Shown one piece after another: positions 1 through 5,111 of a stretch of 5,111 nucleotides of DNA; the stretch's first letter is position 1, and every line of letters starts with the position of its first letter. Source of the stretch: an uncultured Lachnospiraceae bacterium. Lineage in GTDB: Bacteria; Bacillota_A; Clostridia; Lachnospirales; Lachnospiraceae. Position numbers and translations under genes: made by a program. The notes under the pieces are model-generated. The model did no database searches, had not been told where the DNA came from, and saw only the letters and a list, made by a program, of their open reading frames with translations. The stretch lies in assembly GCA_946630765.1 (NCBI GenBank), contig CAMOZF010000159.1:1-5111 (forward strand). The letters run 5' to 3'.

Positions 1-739
1 TGGTCATTTCGCGGCTCGTTTTGTTAAAATCCTCCTGCATCCGAAGCTCCGCGACCAGGGTCTTCGTGGTCTTCGCGCCGGTGATGCCCTCGTTGAAGCC
101 CGCGGTAATCTGCGAATTGATCTCGCGAACCCGGCGGTTCAGACGGATCAGATGCCGCTGGAAATAGATCGAGGCAAATGTCGCGAGAGGCACGATGATC
201 AGAACGAGAAGGCAAAGCTTCCAGTTCATCAGGAACATTGCAACAATAGAGCCGACGATATAGGTCAGGTTCCAGACGCCGTCCATCAGCGACCAGGACA
301 CCAGGCCGCCGATACGCCCGGTATCGGACATGACGCGCGAATGAATATAGCCGACACTGTTCTGGTTGTAATAGGAAAATGACAGGGTCTGCAGGTGGTT
401 GAAGCTCGCGCGCCGCATGTCCCGGCTGACGTACATTTCGATCTGTCCGCCCTGGTAGCCCGAGATCAGGTTCCCCGCCGTCTGCAGAAGCAGGATCAGC
501 AGGTACATCAGGATAAAGGGCAGCAGCGTGTCGAGCGTACCAAGCTCGATGAAATGGTTCAGCGCATATTTCTGGAACTGCGGGTTAATCGTGTCGATGA
601 TTCCGGCCATCAGGCACAGCGCCACCATGCTGAAGATGATGCGCCGGTTCGGCTTCAGGTACGGAAGCAGCTTGGGAATGCCGAAATACGGCAGCTTCAC
701 ATACTGCTGCTCTTCTTTATTGAAATTCATATCTGCCAT
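1..739 (-). CDS. ABC exporter half-transporter, second subunit (membrane domain only; 3' end outside window)
   Basis: This reading frame is open from the ATG at 739 to the left edge, giving the first 246 residues of a fused permease/ATPase. The ATP-binding domain lies outside the window. Hydrophobic spans near residues 33-52, 71-92, 155-171 and 175-194 fit the first four helices of a type IV (MsbA-like) exporter. The loop around residues 118-145 (SFSYYNQNSVGYIHSRVMSD) matches the intracellular coupling region of the family, usually F(Y/F)...tGel.sR...D. The start is supported by GGAGG (complement of 748-752) placed 8 bases upstream, inside the end of the preceding gene. Only 3 bases separate that gene's stop from this start, so the two are co-transcribed and probably translationally coupled. 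By family knowledge, adjacent half-transporters of this kind form a heterodimer. I infer this subunit carries the canonical catalytic Glu, because its partner lacks it. The substrate cannot be read from the sequence; drug or lipid export is the usual role. Confidence 0.9.
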   Translation of the reverse strand, partial: MADMNFNKEEQQYVKLPYFGIPKLLPYLKPNRRIIFSMVALCLMAGIIDTINPQFQKYALNHFIELGTLDTLLPFILMYLLILLLQTAGNLISGYQGGQIEMYVSRDMRRASFNHLQTLSFSYYNQNSVGYIHSRVMSDTGRIGGLVSWSLMDGVWNLTYIVGSIVAMFLMNWKLCLLVLIIVPLATFASIYFQRHLIRLNRRVREINSQITAGFNEGITGAKTTKTLVAELRMQEDFNKTSREMT

Positions 740-742
740 ATC

Positions 743-2578
743 TTATGCCTCCGTTTCCGAGAAACTCAGCTGAATATCGTAAATCTTCTGATACAGACCG
801 CCGCCGTTCTGAAGCTCCTGCGGCGTTCCTTCCTCGACAATCCGGCCCTTGTCCATGACAATGACCTTGTCGGCCTGCATCAGGGTCGTCACGCGGTGCG
901 AGATCAGGATCACCGTGGATTTTCCGAGGGATTCGTGAAGCTGGGCGCGGATCTTCGCGTCGGTTTCCGCGTCGACGGCCGACAGAGAGTCGTCAAAGAT
1001 CATGATCGGCGCCTTCTGCGTCAGCATCCGCGCGATCGCAGTCCGCTGCTTCTGGCCGCCGGAAAGCGTCACGCCGCGTTCGCCGACGATCGTGTCATAA
1101 CCGTTCTTGAAGTCGGTGATGGTTTCGTCCACACAGGCGATCTTCGCGGCCTTTCGGATCTCCTCGATCGGCATGCTGCGGTCCCGGATGCCGATATTTT
1201 CACCGACCGTTCTGGAGAAGAGGAAGGGCTCCTGAAGCACCATGCCGATGTTGTTTCTCAGGTCCTCGGCCTTCATATCCGCGATGTCCACGCCGCCGAC
1301 TGTGATCCTTCCGGAGCCCTCCGGAAGATTGTAGAGCCGGTTCAGAAGGAGCATCATCGTGGATTTTCCGGAGCCGGTGGAGCCGAGAATACCCAGCGTC
1401 TTCCCCGCTTCAATGCGCACATTGATATCGCTCAGGACCTCCTGGTCCTTCTCGTAGCCGAAATTCACATGCTCGAACACAATGTCCCCGTGCACGGCGC
1501 GGTCGGTTTCCTCGCGGGACACGGCATTTTCCTTGTCCTCCTCCAGCGGAGAATTCATGATATAACGGATACGGTCGATCGAAACGCCCGCCTTACTCAT
1601 CTCGGAAATCACGCGCCCGAGCTGTCTGACCGGCCAGATCAGCATGCCGTTATAGCTTAAAAAGGCGATGAATTCGCCGGCGGTCAGCTGGCCTTTCACG
1701 CAGAACACCGAGCCGAGCACCAGCATCAGCAGGATCTGAATGCCGCCGATGAAGTCCGACACCGACCAGAACCAGCTCATGAGCTTCATCAGGTTGACCC
1801 AGAGGCCGGTATAGTAAACATTCTGTTTCTCAAAACGCTTCCGCTCGAATTCCTCGCGGCCGAACGCGCGCACGACACGCACGCCGGTCAGGTTTTCCTG
1901 CGCGATCGTCGAAAGCACGCCCTCGTTTTCGTCACATTTTTCAAAGCCCGAGCCGATCTTGCCGTGGAAGACCACGGAATAAATGACGACCACCGGCACT
2001 GCAATCATCGCGATCAGCGTCAGCTTCACATTCATCGCCATCATGAAGCCGAGCGACATGACGACCATGATGATGATGCGGATGATCGAGATCATCTGGT
2101 CCGAAACAAAGGTTCTGACGCGCTCCGCATCCGAGGTGCAGCGCTGGATGATGTCGCCGGTCTTGTTCTCCTGATGCCAGGAGAAGGGCAGCTTCTCGAT
2201 ATGCGCGAAAAGATCCTCACGGATATTCTGCTGCAGGCGCTCGGCGGATATCGAGGCCGTAATGCCCCGAAGATAAATCACAAGCGCCAGCACCGCCGCA
2301 AGAACCGCAACGATAATGGCAATGATGTAGAGATGCTGCCGGAAATATTCCGAGCCGCCCATCCCGCTGAACCAGCGCACGATGAAGCCCGGCGCATTCA
2401 TTTCGGCGTCGCCGATCACGGAGTCCACGGTCTGGCGGATCACCTGCGGGATCAGCATTTCCAGCACCGTCACGAGAAAAGACGCGAGTATCGTATAGAC
2501 GAAAAAGCGCGTGCATCCCTTCAGAAAATGCCCGAGCATTCCGTATCTTGTATAGGTTTTCTGTTTCGTTTTCATCAT
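743..2578 (-). CDS. ABC exporter half-transporter, first subunit, with degenerate ATPase site
   Basis: A complete 611-residue fused membrane/ATPase protein of the MsbA/BmrC/TM287 type. Six hydrophobic spans lie near residues 24-46, 83-104, 161-183, 187-206, 268-292 and 301-321. The nucleotide-binding domain starts near 365: A-loop Tyr375, Walker A GSTGSGKST (399-407), Q-loop Gln449, signature LSGGQKQR (505-512), Walker B IMIFDD (525-530), D-loop SAVD (533-536), H-loop His561. The residue after the Walker B Asp is Asp530, where the catalytic Glu normally sits. This substitution is known from the degenerate half of heterodimeric exporters such as BmrC and TM287, and it fits the adjacent second half-transporter. 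Two in-frame ATGs begin the gene (2578 and 2575). AGGAG (complement of 2583-2587) is 4 bases from the first and 7 from the second, so initiation at 2575 may dominate. The gene follows a leader with an intrinsic terminator, suggesting attenuation control. The transported compound is unknown; multidrug export is the likeliest role. Confidence 0.95.
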   Translation of the reverse strand: MMKTKQKTYTRYGMLGHFLKGCTRFFVYTILASFLVTVLEMLIPQVIRQTVDSVIGDAEMNAPGFIVRWFSGMGGSEYFRQHLYIIAIIVAVLAAVLALVIYLRGITASISAERLQQNIREDLFAHIEKLPFSWHQENKTGDIIQRCTSDAERVRTFVSDQMISIIRIIIMVVMSLGFMMAMNVKLTLIAMIAVPVVVIYSVVFHGKIGSGFEKCDENEGVLSTIAQENLTGVRVVRAFGREEFERKRFEKQNVYYTGLWVNLMKLMSWFWSVSDFIGGIQILLMLVLGSVFCVKGQLTAGEFIAFLSYNGMLIWPVRQLGRVISEMSKAGVSIDRIRYIMNSPLEEDKENAVSREETDRAVHGDIVFEHVNFGYEKDQEVLSDINVRIEAGKTLGILGSTGSGKSTMMLLLNRLYNLPEGSGRITVGGVDIADMKAEDLRNNIGMVLQEPFLFSRTVGENIGIRDRSMPIEEIRKAAKIACVDETITDFKNGYDTIVGERGVTLSGGQKQRTAIARMLTQKAPIMIFDDSLSAVDAETDAKIRAQLHESLGKSTVILISHRVTTLMQADKVIVMDKGRIVEEGTPQELQNGGGLYQKIYDIQLSFSETEA

Positions 2579-2630
2579 CCGTCTCCTGTAAATTCAAAAG
2601 ATCGCAGCGCTTCCGTCTGTCTGAAAAAAA

Positions 2631-2657
2631 GCCCCATGCCTGAAGATCGCATGGGGC
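2631..2657 (-). terminator. Intrinsic terminator in the exporter leader (likely attenuator)
   Basis: Read on the minus strand, a perfect 9-bp stem (GCCCCATGC paired with GCATGGGGC) closes a 9-nt loop and is followed at once by seven T (complement of 2624-2630). This is a textbook Rho-independent terminator for leftward transcription. It lies only about 50 bases before the first exporter gene and about 180 bases after the promoter at 2844-2872, with no large gene between them. I therefore infer an attenuator that must be bypassed for exporter expression. A plain terminator for the thioesterase transcript is the alternative, but then the exporter would need a promoter within the 50 bases after it, and I see none. 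Confidence 0.9.
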
Positions 2658-2692
2658 GCTTTATATTCAAGATATCCTGTATGAAATAAGAA

Positions 2693-2749
2693 TCAGGACA
2701 GCATCCACGGATCATGTATTCCATGCGCCATGGACGGGCCAGGGCACAT
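2693..2749 (-). CDS. Leader peptide ORF 2 (18 aa, MCPGPSMAHGIHDPWMLS)
   Basis: A short ORF in the exporter leader, running from ATG at 2749 to TGA at 2695-2693. Its start overlaps the stop of the preceding 13-codon ORF by one base (TGATG), the classic arrangement for translational coupling. It has only a weak ribosome site of its own. The peptide is rich in Pro, Met, His and Gly and includes Cys2 and Trp15, which is unusual for chance read-through. Codons 6-10 form a 6-bp hairpin (complement of 2720-2734), and part of that hairpin (CGCATGG) is complementary to the 5' arm of the downstream terminator. I infer a regulatory leader peptide whose translation sets the fold of the leader RNA. I do not recognise a named family. 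The ORF could be fortuitous, since it is very short. Confidence 0.5.
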   Translation of the reverse strand: MCPGPSMAHGIHDPWMLS

Positions 2750-2790
2750 CAGATTGAATATTCTCTTGTCGTGCCTACCCTTTTCAACAT
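2749..2790 (-). CDS. Leader peptide ORF 1 (13 aa, MLKRVGTTREYSI)
   Basis: This tiny ORF has the best ribosome binding site in the leader: AAAGGAG on the minus strand, with AGGAG at the complement of 2802-2806. The 11-base spacing to ATG is slightly long but usable. It begins about 47 bases after the predicted transcription start. Its TGA overlaps the ATG of the next tiny ORF. Codons 11-13 contain ATATTCAA, which is perfectly complementary to TTGAATAT just before the terminator. A ribosome on the end of this ORF would therefore block that long-range helix. The peptide sequence resembles nothing I recognise. The function is inferred only from position, ribosome site and coupling. Confidence 0.45.
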   Translation of the reverse strand: MLKRVGTTREYSI

Positions 2791-2843
2791 GTCCCTTATA
2801 TCTCCTTTCACAGAAGTCTGCGGCTTTGCCGCACACGCTACTG

Positions 2844-2872
2844 ACTTTAACACAGAATCCCCGGAAAGTCAA
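2844..2872 (-). promoter_or_regulatory. Sigma-A-type promoter for the exporter leader
   Basis: On the minus strand, TTGACT (complement of 2867-2872, 5 of 6 to consensus) and TAAAGT (2844-2849, 4 of 6) are separated by exactly 17 bases. A TGn extended -10 motif immediately precedes the -10 box. The predicted transcription start is near 2837. The promoter begins 8 bases past the stop codon of the 4Fe-4S fragment, so the exporter operon has its own transcription unit. It is the only clear promoter in the window. Confidence 0.75.
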
Positions 2873-2879
2873 GCGATTC

Positions 2880-3006
2880 TTATGCTTCGCCGATGGTTGC
2901 GCACTCCCGGAGAAGCTCGATGATCGGCAGATGCTGCGGGCACGCGCCCTCGCACTGGCCGCAGCCGATACAGTCACGGTTTCCTGACCCCGAAGGATTT
3001 GCAGCT
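2880..3006 (-). pseudogene. 4Fe-4S C-terminal remnant of an aldo/keto reductase
   Basis: Directly after the thioesterase stop, a different frame encodes about 42 residues ending at TAA 2880-2882. They contain CIGCGQCEGACPQHLPIIEL, a CxxCxxCxxxCP iron-sulfur motif. The motif and the following PIIELL run closely resemble the C-terminal tail found on a clostridial class of aldo/keto reductases. No ATG, GTG or TTG in this frame lies between the thioesterase stop and the motif. Upstream, the frame is only the shadow of the thioesterase. I infer the tail of a gene whose body was deleted. Two alternatives remain: a one-base error or frameshift in the A-rich stretch at the thioesterase end (deleting one A would fuse the two frames), or a chance domain-like run, which the four spaced Cys make unlikely. 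Confidence 0.55.
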
Positions 3007-3450
3007 TCATTTTCTTTTCCGGATTTCCTTCCGAAGAACAGCGGCTTCGTATTCGGCCTTCTCCTCCTCGGTCTCCGGGACAAACTGGGGCACCTGCTTC
3101 GGCCGGCCTTCGTCATCGATCGCGACGAACACCAGATAGGCAACATTGATCGCGCTGTGCGTCCCGTCGAGCTGTTCGACGTAGCTGTCCACGCGCACCT
3201 CCAGAGAGGTATGCCCGGTCCAGGTCACCCTAGCCTCCTGCACAACCGTGTCATTCAGGTAGGCCGGCGCAATAAAATTCAGATTGTCGATCCGCGCGGT
3301 CGTCACCGCGCTGTTCGTGAACCGCCGGGCAGCGACGGCCCCGATCACGTCGATCCAGGCCATCAGCTGGCCGCCGAAAAGCCTCGGATTTTTGTAGCCG
3401 TTGCAATGCTGCGGCATCACGATCTGCACCGTCGTCGATACTTCCTGCAT
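3007..3450 (-). CDS. Acyl-CoA thioesterase, hotdog fold (YkhA/YciA/ACOT-like)
   Basis: A 147-residue protein expected to hydrolyse acyl-CoA to free acid and CoA in the cytoplasm. Residues 24-34 (LFGGQLMAWID) match the hallmark of the family, where the hotdog helix carries the conserved acidic residue, here Asp34. The segment WTGHTSLEVRV (about 76-86) fits the central strand region, and the charged Glu/Lys-rich tail from about 125 is typical of this group. Length is normal for single-hotdog members, which assemble as trimers of dimers. The start ATG at 3450 has AGGAG (complement of 3457-3461) with a 6-base spacer. The stop is followed by a start-less 4Fe-4S fragment in another frame. The gene lies downstream of proC but is separated by about 235 bases with two inverted repeats, so co-transcription is uncertain and no promoter was seen. 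The preferred acyl chain cannot be predicted. Confidence 0.9.
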   Translation of the reverse strand: MQEVSTTVQIVMPQHCNGYKNPRLFGGQLMAWIDVIGAVAARRFTNSAVTTARIDNLNFIAPAYLNDTVVQEARVTWTGHTSLEVRVDSYVEQLDGTHSAINVAYLVFVAIDDEGRPKQVPQFVPETEEEKAEYEAAVLRKEIRKRK

Positions 3451-3481
3451 TTTTCTCTCCTTTGTGAAACTCGCCTGCGGG

Positions 3482-3532
3482 ATGATGATCCTTCTTCGGA
3501 GACACGGGAAGTCTCCTCTGAAGGATCATCAT
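3482..3532. repeat. Inverted repeat upstream of the thioesterase
   Basis: A 13-base arm (ATGATGATCCTTC, 3482-3494) pairs perfectly with 3520-3532. After a 3x3 internal mismatch, a further 6 bases (GGAGAC 3498-3503 with GTCTCC 3511-3516) close a 7-base loop. There is no T-run on either strand, so a standard intrinsic terminator is not supported. The hairpin would sit in the 5' untranslated region of the thioesterase, ending about 20 bases before its ribosome site. Possible roles are RNA processing or stability, a cis-regulatory stem, or a repeat of mobile origin. Confidence 0.75.
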
Positions 3533-3591
3533 TACCCTCGGCTCGGGCTCCGACCGCACGCCCTCGCCAGGGATGACATGCATGGAGCGTA

Positions 3592-3670
3592 CTGGCAGCT
3601 CAGGACATCAGTGCCTCAAGGGGACGCCTGGAACGTTGTCCCCGGAGGCACTGATGTTCTGAGCGTCCGG
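3592..3670. repeat. Long near-perfect palindrome downstream of proC
   Basis: Arms of 20 bases (3598-3617 and 3645-3664) match with a single mismatch, which is G-U pairable in one transcript orientation. Inside, after a 2x1 bulge, GGGGAC (3620-3625) pairs with GTCCCC (3638-3643) around a 12-base loop. Outside, CTGG (3592-3595) can pair with CCGG (3667-3670). It starts about 15 bases past the proC stop in the direction of transcription. It lacks a T-run, so it is not a canonical terminator, though so strong a stem could still protect or end the proC transcript. Its GC-rich nested layout resembles extragenic palindromic (REP-like or miniature element) repeats. No target duplication was identified. 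Confidence 0.8.
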
Positions 3671-3685
3671 GGTGTGCCCGCCGCG

Positions 3686-4495
3686 TTATTTCCCTAATTC
3701 CAAAGTTTTCTCGTAGGCGGCGATGACGGCGTCCATGACGGCGCCGCGGAAGCCGTCTTCCTCGAGCACGCGCACGCCCTGAATCGTCGAGCCGCCGGGC
3801 GAGCAGACCTGGTCCTTGATGATGCCGGGATGTACGTGGTTCTTCATCTGAAGCACACCGGTTCCGATCAGGGTCTGAACCGCGAGCCTGGCCGCTGTCA
3901 GCCGCGGAAGGCCGACCGCCACACCGCCGTCCGCCAGGGCTTCGATGAACAGTGCCGCAAAGGCCGGTCCGCAGCCGGAAACCGCGGAGCCCGCATCAAT
4001 CAGGCGCTCCTCGATCGGCATCAGCTCTCCGGCCTGCGAAAGGATGCGAAGAAGGTCGTTGAAATCTTCGTCCGAAACAAGTTCGTCCCGGGAAAGCATG
4101 ATGATGCCCTCGCCGACGGACACGGGAACATTCGGCATGATGCGGACGACCGGAAAATCATCTCCGGCAAGGGCCTTGATCTGCGCGATCGAGACGCCGG
4201 CCGCCATGCTCACAAGAACCGGCGGTTCGGCAGCCCGCTTATGAAGCGCCGACGAAAGCTCCTCGAAAAGCCCCGAAAGCATATGCGGCTTGACGCCGAT
4301 AAAGATGAAATCGGATCTTCTCACGAGCGCGTCCTTCTCGACGACATGCGCGCCGGGGATGCCGTGCGAGATCCGAAGCGCCGCTGTTTTATCCTTGTCG
4401 CACAGAAGGATCTGATCGCCTTCCTCGCCCTTTCCGGCCGCAATGGCCAGTGCGCCGCCCATATTGCCGGTACCGATGAAACCAATCGTTGCCAT
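3686..4495 (-). CDS. proC: Pyrroline-5-carboxylate reductase
   Basis: A complete 269-residue enzyme of usual family length. It reduces pyrroline-5-carboxylate to L-proline with NAD(P)H in the cytoplasm, the last step of proline synthesis. The N-terminal Rossmann fold begins with GFIGTGNMGGAL (5-16), the dinucleotide-binding glycine motif. GVKP (67-70) and RIMPN (118-122) are standard family motifs. The C-terminal helical dimerisation domain contains SGCGPAF (173-179) and the family signature around VCSPGGSTIQGVRVLEE (230-246), whose Ser/Thr residues bind substrate. The ATG at 4495 has GGAGG (complement of 4503-4507) with a 7-base spacer. The gene begins 52 bases after the proA stop with no terminator or promoter visible between, so the two most likely form one operon. 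A strong palindrome lies just past its stop. No truncation or missing key residue is seen. Confidence 0.97.
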   Translation of the reverse strand: MATIGFIGTGNMGGALAIAAGKGEEGDQILLCDKDKTAALRISHGIPGAHVVEKDALVRRSDFIFIGVKPHMLSGLFEELSSALHKRAAEPPVLVSMAAGVSIAQIKALAGDDFPVVRIMPNVPVSVGEGIIMLSRDELVSDEDFNDLLRILSQAGELMPIEERLIDAGSAVSGCGPAFAALFIEALADGGVAVGLPRLTAARLAVQTLIGTGVLQMKNHVHPGIIKDQVCSPGGSTIQGVRVLEEDGFRGAVMDAVIAAYEKTLELGK

Positions 4496-4547
4496 ATCCT
4501 TTCCTCCCTTTTTCAGCTTTTACTTCTCAATGTTTTCCTGTAAATAT

Positions 4548-5111
4548 TCAGCGAACCTGGCCTTCACCGTAGACCAGATACTTCGTGCTTGTCAGCGCCG
4601 GCAGTCCCACGGGGCCCCGGACGTGCAGCTTCTGTGTGGAAATGCCGATCTCCGCGCCCATGCCGAATTCTCCGCCGTCCGTAAATCTCGTCGAAGCATT
4701 GACATAGACCGTCGCCGCGTCCACACCGTTCAGGAACTTTTCCGCCGAAGCGGCATCCTCTGTGACGATGCATTCGGAGTGCATCGTGCCGTGCAGACGG
4801 ATGAATTCCATGGCCTCCTCGACAGAGCCCACGGTTTTGACCGCCAGAATATAGTCGCCGAATTCGCTGTCCCAGTCCTCTTCCGAGGCTTCGCGAATCT
4901 CTCCGGGATAGGCCGGGACAACACTTCCGTCCTCCTGAAGCCCTGAAAGTACCTGATAGGCCTCCGTATCCGCCCGAAGTTCCACACGCTTCTCCGAAAG
5001 CAGCGGAAGCGCCTCACAAAGGAAATCGCGAAGCACCGCGCGGTGGATCAGCACACATTCGGCCGCGTTGCAGACGGACGGCCGCGAACATTTCGCGTTT
5101 TCGAGGATCTT
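4548..5111 (-). CDS. proA: Gamma-glutamyl phosphate reductase, C-terminal part (5' end outside window)
   Basis: The frame is open from the right edge to TGA at 4548-4550, giving the last 187 residues of an enzyme of about 415. It reduces gamma-glutamyl phosphate to glutamate semialdehyde with NADPH in proline synthesis. The visible part starts KILENAKCSRPSVCNAAE. The Cys of SVCNAAE (codon at 5070-5072) matches the catalytic cysteine of this aldehyde-dehydrogenase-like family. Near the C-terminus the family signature VYVNASTRFTDGGEFGMGAE is intact, followed by GISTQKLHVRGPVGL. A GTG at 5054 is not the start, because the conserved sequence continues upstream of it to the edge. proC follows 52 bases downstream. 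proB, the kinase that normally partners proA, would be expected further right, but this cannot be seen. Confidence 0.97.
   Translation of the reverse strand, partial: KILENAKCSRPSVCNAAECVLIHRAVLRDFLCEALPLLSEKRVELRADTEAYQVLSGLQEDGSVVPAYPGEIREASEEDWDSEFGDYILAVKTVGSVEEAMEFIRLHGTMHSECIVTEDAASAEKFLNGVDAATVYVNASTRFTDGGEFGMGAEIGISTQKLHVRGPVGLPALTSTKYLVYGEGQVR

Follow-up and report, generated by a model that had tools for sequence, protein, structure and literature searches.

A probable ribosome-mediated transcription attenuator precedes a heterodimeric ABC exporter operon in an uncultured Lachnospiraceae bacterium

The window analysed here is a stretch of 5,111 nucleotides from an uncultured Lachnospiraceae bacterium (assembly GCA_946630765.1, contig CAMOZF010000159.1, positions 1 to 5,111). 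It holds two adjacent genes of the transmembrane domain–nucleotide-binding domain type:

743–2578, minus strand: ABC exporter gene 1, 611 aa, with a transmembrane and a nucleotide-binding domain; IMIFDDSLSAVD, in which Asp replaces the catalytic Glu
1–739, minus strand: ABC exporter gene 2, cut by the window end so that just its N-terminal part is present

In heterodimeric ABC exporters, one half carries a degenerate catalytic Glu. Gene 1 contains FDDSLSAVD, and gene 2 of five related loci (L001–L005) contains LDEATSSID; together these motifs give a heterodimer signature with one degenerate site, in agreement with an earlier note on this DNA that had read the pair as a heterodimeric exporter. 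Among the best 60 of 260 structure-chain matches, YheI, which we take to be BmrC, appeared at 3.5e-85 and 2.4e-84, with P-glycoproteins higher and the 5mkk/6raf chain and 2hyd about equal. At least 5000 plasmid records matched the exporter protein, all at less than 60% identity.

Upstream of gene 1 lies a leader of ~210 nt. In minus-strand order it comprises a promoter, a small 5′ hairpin, a Shine-Dalgarno sequence, a tiny ORF (ORF1), a densely paired stretch to ~2695 and a terminator. The principal elements are:

2844–2872, minus strand: promoter, TTGACT (2872–2867), a 17-nt spacer with TG before the second hexamer, and TAAAGT (2849–2844)
2802–2807, minus strand: Shine-Dalgarno AAGGAG of ORF1
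2749–2790, minus strand: ORF1, leader peptide MLKRVGTTREYSI plus stop UGA
2624–2657, minus strand: intrinsic terminator, 5′ arm 2657–2649, loop 2648–2640, 3′ arm 2639–2631, U7 2630–2624

These elements bear out the promoter, the ~200-nt leader and the terminator (9-bp stem, seven U) ~50 bases before the exporter that the earlier note had described. The promoter score alone is weak, since the window has 5 promoter-like sites against 2.1 expected; from the promoter position, transcription is predicted to start at ~2837. None of 200 shuffles of the region 2840–2579 folds as well as the native sequence (z -4.73). The terminator, with a 9-bp stem, a 9-nt loop and UUUUUUU, has an energy of -19.4 kcal/mol, which 0 of 200 shuffles matched, and lies 45 nt from the exporter ATG (2578). 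A pattern scan that permits loops of at most 8 nt does not list it.

Exporter patterns retrieved 34 loci from genome_contigs, covering MAGs of Lachnospiraceae and Clostridia as well as Bacillus and more distant groups. In a motif search of these loci and the window, the leader was found only in the window and in L001, L002 and L003, the first two from uncultured Lachnospiraceae and the third from an uncultured Clostridiales. Exporter identity to the window is 87, 85 and 85%, respectively. The same search found it neither at L004 (exporter 84% identical) and L005 (78%) nor at L006–L018. All four leaders share the promoter, the purine-rich Shine-Dalgarno-like stretch, a 13-codon ORF1 with its stop and a hairpin at the terminator position, with TTGAC[A/T] and a similar second hexamer recognizable by eye at the same place. 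The earlier note had staked its reading on conservation of the terminator and the tiny ORFs in relatives; hairpin and ORF1 are indeed kept in L001–L003. The hairpins score z -4.08, -4.42, -4.67 and -2.22 (window, L001, L002 and L003, the order of all such series below). A terminator between ORF1 and the first gene is clear in the window, L001 and L003; in L002 the bases after the hairpin read CUUUACG, a poor U tract, and the scan of upstream stretches, which found terminator-like hairpins in 6 of 19 (window, L001, L003, L005, L014 and L016), did not call the L002 hairpin a terminator.

ORF1 has the features of the leader ORF of a ribosome-mediated attenuator: it is short, follows a ribosome-binding site and keeps its frame in all four leaders, without an indel in its 13 codons plus stop. 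Its peptides are MLKRVGTTREYSI (window), MLMKVRSTIEDFN (L001), MSERARTTREYTI (L002) and MSERARSTREYSI (L003). In the ORF list, its frame starts at a GTG at 2853, a position inside the promoter. Of two tiny ORFs proposed earlier for this leader, ORF1 was thus retained as a conserved frame and the second was not: by eye, the other tiny ORFs (such as MAHGIHDPWMLS or a 49-codon ORF at 2724–2575) are unconserved in L001–L003, and ORF2 was rejected as a second leader peptide, its reading frame being unconserved among the four leaders. An AUG overlaps the ORF1 stop in 4/4 leaders (UGAUG/UAAUG; window 2748–2751, minus strand) and opens frames of 18, 13, 12 and 9 codons; since these differ in length, they encode no conserved peptide, and the overlap may serve translational coupling.

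Six segments, running from inside ORF1 to the terminator, have the potential for mutually exclusive pairing. Segments 3 and 4 make up a hairpin, and segments 5 and 6 the terminator. In the proposed OFF state, helices 1:2 and 3:4 and the terminator 5:6 would form; in the ON state, 2:3 and the antiterminator 4:5 would replace them.

2767–2780, minus strand: segment 1, inside ORF1 (codons 4–8); pairs with 2 (OFF)
2736–2748, minus strand: segment 2, immediately 3′ of the ORF1 stop; pairs with 1 (OFF) or with 3 (ON; 2747–2739)
2725–2735, minus strand: segment 3, GUCCAUGGCGC; pairs with 4 (OFF; 2735–2728) or with 2 (ON; 2733–2725)
2700–2713, minus strand: segment 4, GAUCCGUGGAUGCU; 2710–2703 pairs with 3 (OFF), 2713–2705 plus 2703–2700 with 5 (ON, antiterminator)
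2645–2660, minus strand: segment 5, AGCGCCCCAUGCGAUC; terminator 5′ arm and part of the loop; pairs with 4 (antiterminator)

The 2:3 complementarity joins GUACCGUGG to CCAUGGUGC, with 9 bp in three leaders and 8/9 in the window, where an A-U pair is replaced by G-C; its duplex energies are -13.1, -15.4, -16.2 and -16.8 kcal/mol. For 4:5, the window offers 13 bp with small bulges, and the energies are -15.2, -8.9, -7.2 and -7.9 kcal/mol. In the window, one C-G pair of helix 1:2 has become G-C, a compensatory change; the best fold of the window uses a shifted register.

The compact, well-conserved three-way junction formed by an outer stem (2795–2790/2700–2695 in the window), 1:2 and 3:4 could also be read as a riboswitch for a small-molecule ligand, perhaps a substrate of the exporter, with ORF1 incidental or secondary. 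Such a reading would accommodate codon 6 of the window, where a change from Arg to Gly alters the peptide and keeps the RNA pair. Against it, the start, stop and length of ORF1 are kept in 4/4 leaders, segment 1 lies where the ribosome would sit, and segment 2 begins at the stop codon. Nor did any Rfam family reach its gathering threshold over the leader: four matches had E values of 0.1 to 0.71 and scores far short of the gathering cut-offs, and a further Rfam search gave none over the leader. A known riboswitch was rejected on these grounds, and we regard a riboswitch in general as unlikely.

The response to ribosome position was computed by ensemble folding in which the RNA up to the front edge of a model ribosome was removed, at three transcript stages. 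Without a ribosome, all four leaders formed 1:2 (8.0–9.7 bp) and 3:4 (8.5–9.8 bp). Before segment 4 is made, 2:3 reached 7.6–9.1 bp in 4/4 leaders at all 14 ribosome edges tested (nt 18–44 of ORF1); with no ribosome at this stage, 2:3 had 0.0, 2.0, 0.0 and 0.0 bp and 1:2 formed instead. With the transcript extended to the terminator loop, the highest values were 4.4, 6.1, 6.7 and 9.0 bp for 2:3 and 5.5, 7.8, 0.8 and 9.6 bp for 4:5. At this stage, L003 switched fully (2:3 at 8.9–9.0 bp, codons 2–10) and L002 mostly or strongly (4.4–6.7 bp). The window was about half switched with the P site at codons 6–10 (3.6–4.4 bp) and little at codons 2–5 (1.2–1.8 bp); its 3:4 helix persists once segment 4 is made, with 7.0–7.6 bp at codons 2–5 and 4.0–4.9 bp at codons 6–10. 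The response of L001 was narrow, 2:3 exceeding 3 bp only with the P site at codons 4–5 (4.1 and 6.1 bp). A P site at codons 12–13 left 2:3 at 0.0 in 4/4 leaders. In the full-length transcript, the terminator was more stable at every ribosome position in all four, so that any control must be kinetic, set by the order of synthesis. The attenuator claimed in the earlier note therefore stands in part: the leader is kept in three relatives and its mutually exclusive helices respond to ribosome position in the right direction, but after synthesis of segment 4 the window and L001 respond only partially, and 4:5 is unsupported in L002.

One alternative is that nothing is regulated: a plain or partial terminator would merely lower basal expression, and the alternative helices would be by-products of the palindromic CCAUGG, whose self-complementarity eases alternative pairing. 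Each leader was permuted 1000 times with the pairs of 1:2, 3:4 and 5:6 preserved, and folded for a single P-site position, codon 7, which is not the best one of L001. Both ON helices reached their observed base-pair values in 5, 27, 4 and 0 of 1000 permutations. Taken singly, the base pairs of 2:3 were reached in 15, 67, 7 and 0 and those of 4:5 in 12, 60, 167 and 5, and the duplex energies in 101, 0, 2 and 1 for 2:3 and in 46, 373, 455 and 277 for 4:5. On these models, 2:3 is well supported and 4:5 only in part, its base pairs being supported in the window and L003, weakly in L001 and not in L002, and its energy in the window alone. The palindrome was accordingly rejected as the sole cause of re-pairing for 2:3, which extends past it and, in the window, contains a compensatory pair change. 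The failure of 4:5 in L002, its energy standing out only in the window, and the lack of the leader at the 15 other closest exporter loci speak for an unregulated terminator; the joint retention of promoter, tiny ORF and hairpin in three relatives speaks against it. In our judgement, the absence of regulation is rather improbable.

A covariation search among related leaders, proposed in the earlier note, found three pairs with compensatory changes. One belongs to 1:2, another to the inner part by which the 3:4 hairpin is extended, and the third to 2:3. Across the four related sequences, this amounts to two double changes in OFF pairs and one in 2:3, scores that 32 and 118 of 500 shuffles reached. 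Helix 1:2 is paired in 80% of cells, and one pair assigned to it is unpaired in 4/4 leaders. The covariation evidence from four sequences is thus thin.

Across the genomes searched, the leader has a narrow distribution. An RNA model, R1, built from the four leader sequences was negative at L004, L005, L006 and L017 and matched strongly only in three genomes (G001, G002 and G003; E 7e-28 to 1e-36), once per genome and each time before the exporter. Among the eight genomes behind the loci, 5/8 matched at E up to 1, three of them strongly and the others at E of at least 0.0258; among 299 genomes sampled from the family, 4/299 matched at E up to 0.01, two strongly and two weakly; and among 15 genomes of the genus, 8/15 matched at E up to 1, three strongly and the five others with best E values of 0.005 to 0.55. 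Of the weak places, those inspected (L038–L043) were judged to be chance matches, the segment 3/4 hairpin being absent by eye from all of them; L040, L042 and L043 were rescored. A segment 3/4 pattern, which cannot match the CCGTGG of the window, occurred at 11 places in 10 of 392 genomes of the order, including G003. Seven of the ten places beyond G003 were inspected: six appeared coding-like by eye, and L059 is an intergenic hairpin without ORF1. This CCATGG hairpin (L059, 1501–1526), in another genome of the order, resembles segments 3/4, and the stretch inspected holds no ORF1. Two leader patterns gave 0 matches in viral_contigs, and blastn with words of 11 found no leader match in plasmids.

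Several observations concern the surroundings of these loci. At L005, the 78% identical exporter is preceded by a different leader (~3840–3990) with a strong terminator-like hairpin of -23.3 kcal/mol, whose U tract starts 51 nt before the inferred exporter start; it gave no R1 match and may be another attenuator. L002 has a glycine riboswitch (RF00504, 56.9 bits) at 1910–2007 before another ORF. In the window, 2880–2997 (minus strand) encodes a Cys-rich Fe-S tail, CIGCGQCEGACP, with weak Fer4 matches and the rest of the gene missing. L001 has a long ORF from position 83, aldo/keto reductase-like by eye, which ends just before the promoter; the tail in the window may therefore be a remnant of such a gene. 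Between a 4HBT thioesterase gene and proC, the window also contains imperfect inverted repeats at 3482–3532 (22-nt arms, 86%) and 3598–3664 (25-nt arms, 88%), which are terminators or a repeat element.

Based on the conserved elements and the computed folds, we propose that 2872–2579 (minus strand) is probably a ribosome-mediated transcription attenuator that controls the heterodimeric exporter operon. RNA polymerase would transcribe the leader, and a ribosome would initiate on ORF1. If ORF1 is untranslated, or is read through to its stop, 3:4 would pair, terminator 5:6 would form and transcription would end at ~2624. A ribosome stalled early or midway in ORF1, with its P site at about codons 4–10, would instead cover segment 1, and segment 2 could then take segment 3 once the latter is made and before segment 4 exists. 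With 2:3 formed, segment 4 would be free to capture the 5′ arm of the terminator (segment 5), and the polymerase would read into the exporter genes. What is new here is this predicted six-segment relay, driven from a 13-codon ORF1.

Known systems offer points of comparison for this relay. In the bmrB leader of bmrBCD from Bacillus subtilis, induction requires translation of the leader ORF, and there, as here, a leader ORF and a terminator/antiterminator precede a heterodimeric multidrug ABC exporter, as described in PMC4191407. The bmrB ORF, however, has 53 residues and includes three alternative stem-loops within its own sequence, with 119 bp between its end and bmrC (PMC4191407); here, a 13-codon ORF would act at a distance through the relay, with the terminator outside the ORF, a distinction drawn from the published description. 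Because ORF1 has 13 codons against 53 residues and 91 nt separate its end from the terminator stem, a bmrB-type leader was rejected. The bmrBCD-like idea of the earlier note is supported in principle, with a different anatomy; that ribosome-targeting antibiotics would induce the operon in the same way is plausible.

The closest layout is that of the mef(E)/mel leader of Streptococcus pneumoniae and the ermK leader, which PMC4335068 describes as macrolide-inducible through transcription attenuation, with a terminator, paired inverted repeats and a leader ORF that encodes only MTASMRLR. mef(E)/mel controls an MFS pump and an ABC protein without a membrane domain (PMC4335068), whereas an ABC exporter pair would be controlled here. 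The patAB leader of S. pneumoniae is likewise a terminator-based attenuator before a heterodimeric ABC exporter; the portion of PMC4319486 drawn on here describes no leader ORF and names fluoroquinolones and DNA damage as inducers. Naville and Gautheret (2010) predicted many attenuators before ABC transporter operons, including the leader of a multidrug exporter in lactobacilli, in organisms other than ours (PMC2965389); the likeness is one of description. Literature searches gave no description of the present leader among the titles and abstract starts listed, which is no proof of absence. The leader thus appears to be undescribed; the principle of ribosome-sensing attenuation is itself already known.

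The +X+ (Arg/Lys-X-Arg/Lys) arrest motif of ermD, ermK and mef(E) bears on the trigger. PMC8298421 describes Arg/Lys-X-Arg as the motif at which ribosomes, with X in their P site, are arrested by ketolides and, less strictly, by macrolides. Codons 4–6 of ORF1 read KVR, RAR and RAR in L001, L002 and L003, and RVG in the window, whose ORF1 has no +X+ elsewhere. These codons fall in the stretch that opens the relay, which in L001 opens best with the P site at codons 4–5. By chance, 32% of random peptides of the same base composition contain +X+ anywhere, and 4.3% at codons 4–6. Macrolide arrest at +X+ was rejected as an established trigger, being absent in the window and frequent by chance. Given the RVG of the window, the chance frequency of +X+ and the relatedness of the four leaders, antibiotic stalling is only likely, and the drug class is left unassigned: should the relay be real, we would put antibiotics as the natural cause of stalling, whatever their class, slightly ahead of even chances.

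Stalling could in principle arise from tRNA shortage at the Arg or Thr codons of ORF1, making the leader an amino-acid or general translation-stress attenuator that needs no antibiotic. Codons 7–8 are indeed Thr-Thr or Ser-Thr in 4/4 leaders, and Arg codons occur within the sensitive stretch. ORF1 nonetheless lacks a run of one amino acid, and what lies under its control would be an exporter gene rather than a biosynthetic one, which makes this explanation very improbable.

A bolder version of the attenuator would have ORF1 act jointly with a ligand-capable three-way junction, as a two-input efflux-pump sensor in a leader family that only a few Lachnospiraceae carry. Folding of the junction, possibly with a bound pump substrate, would control whether a ribosome can load on ORF1, and a subsequent stall of that ribosome would open the operon. 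The outer stem of the junction sits between the Shine-Dalgarno and the start codon of ORF1, and in the best fold of the window the Shine-Dalgarno itself is largely paired. We offer this version as speculation with only a slim chance of being right.

If the simpler attenuator proposed above is real, a heterodimeric exporter of uncultured Lachnospiraceae would join those under a ribosome-sensing switch, here one whose anatomy, a tiny ORF plus a six-segment relay, is unlike that of bmrBCD. The absence of the leader from closely related exporters, together with the other terminator leader in L005, fits a fast turnover of such switches. The leader would also offer a simple test of whether such exporters answer translation inhibitors in such anaerobes.
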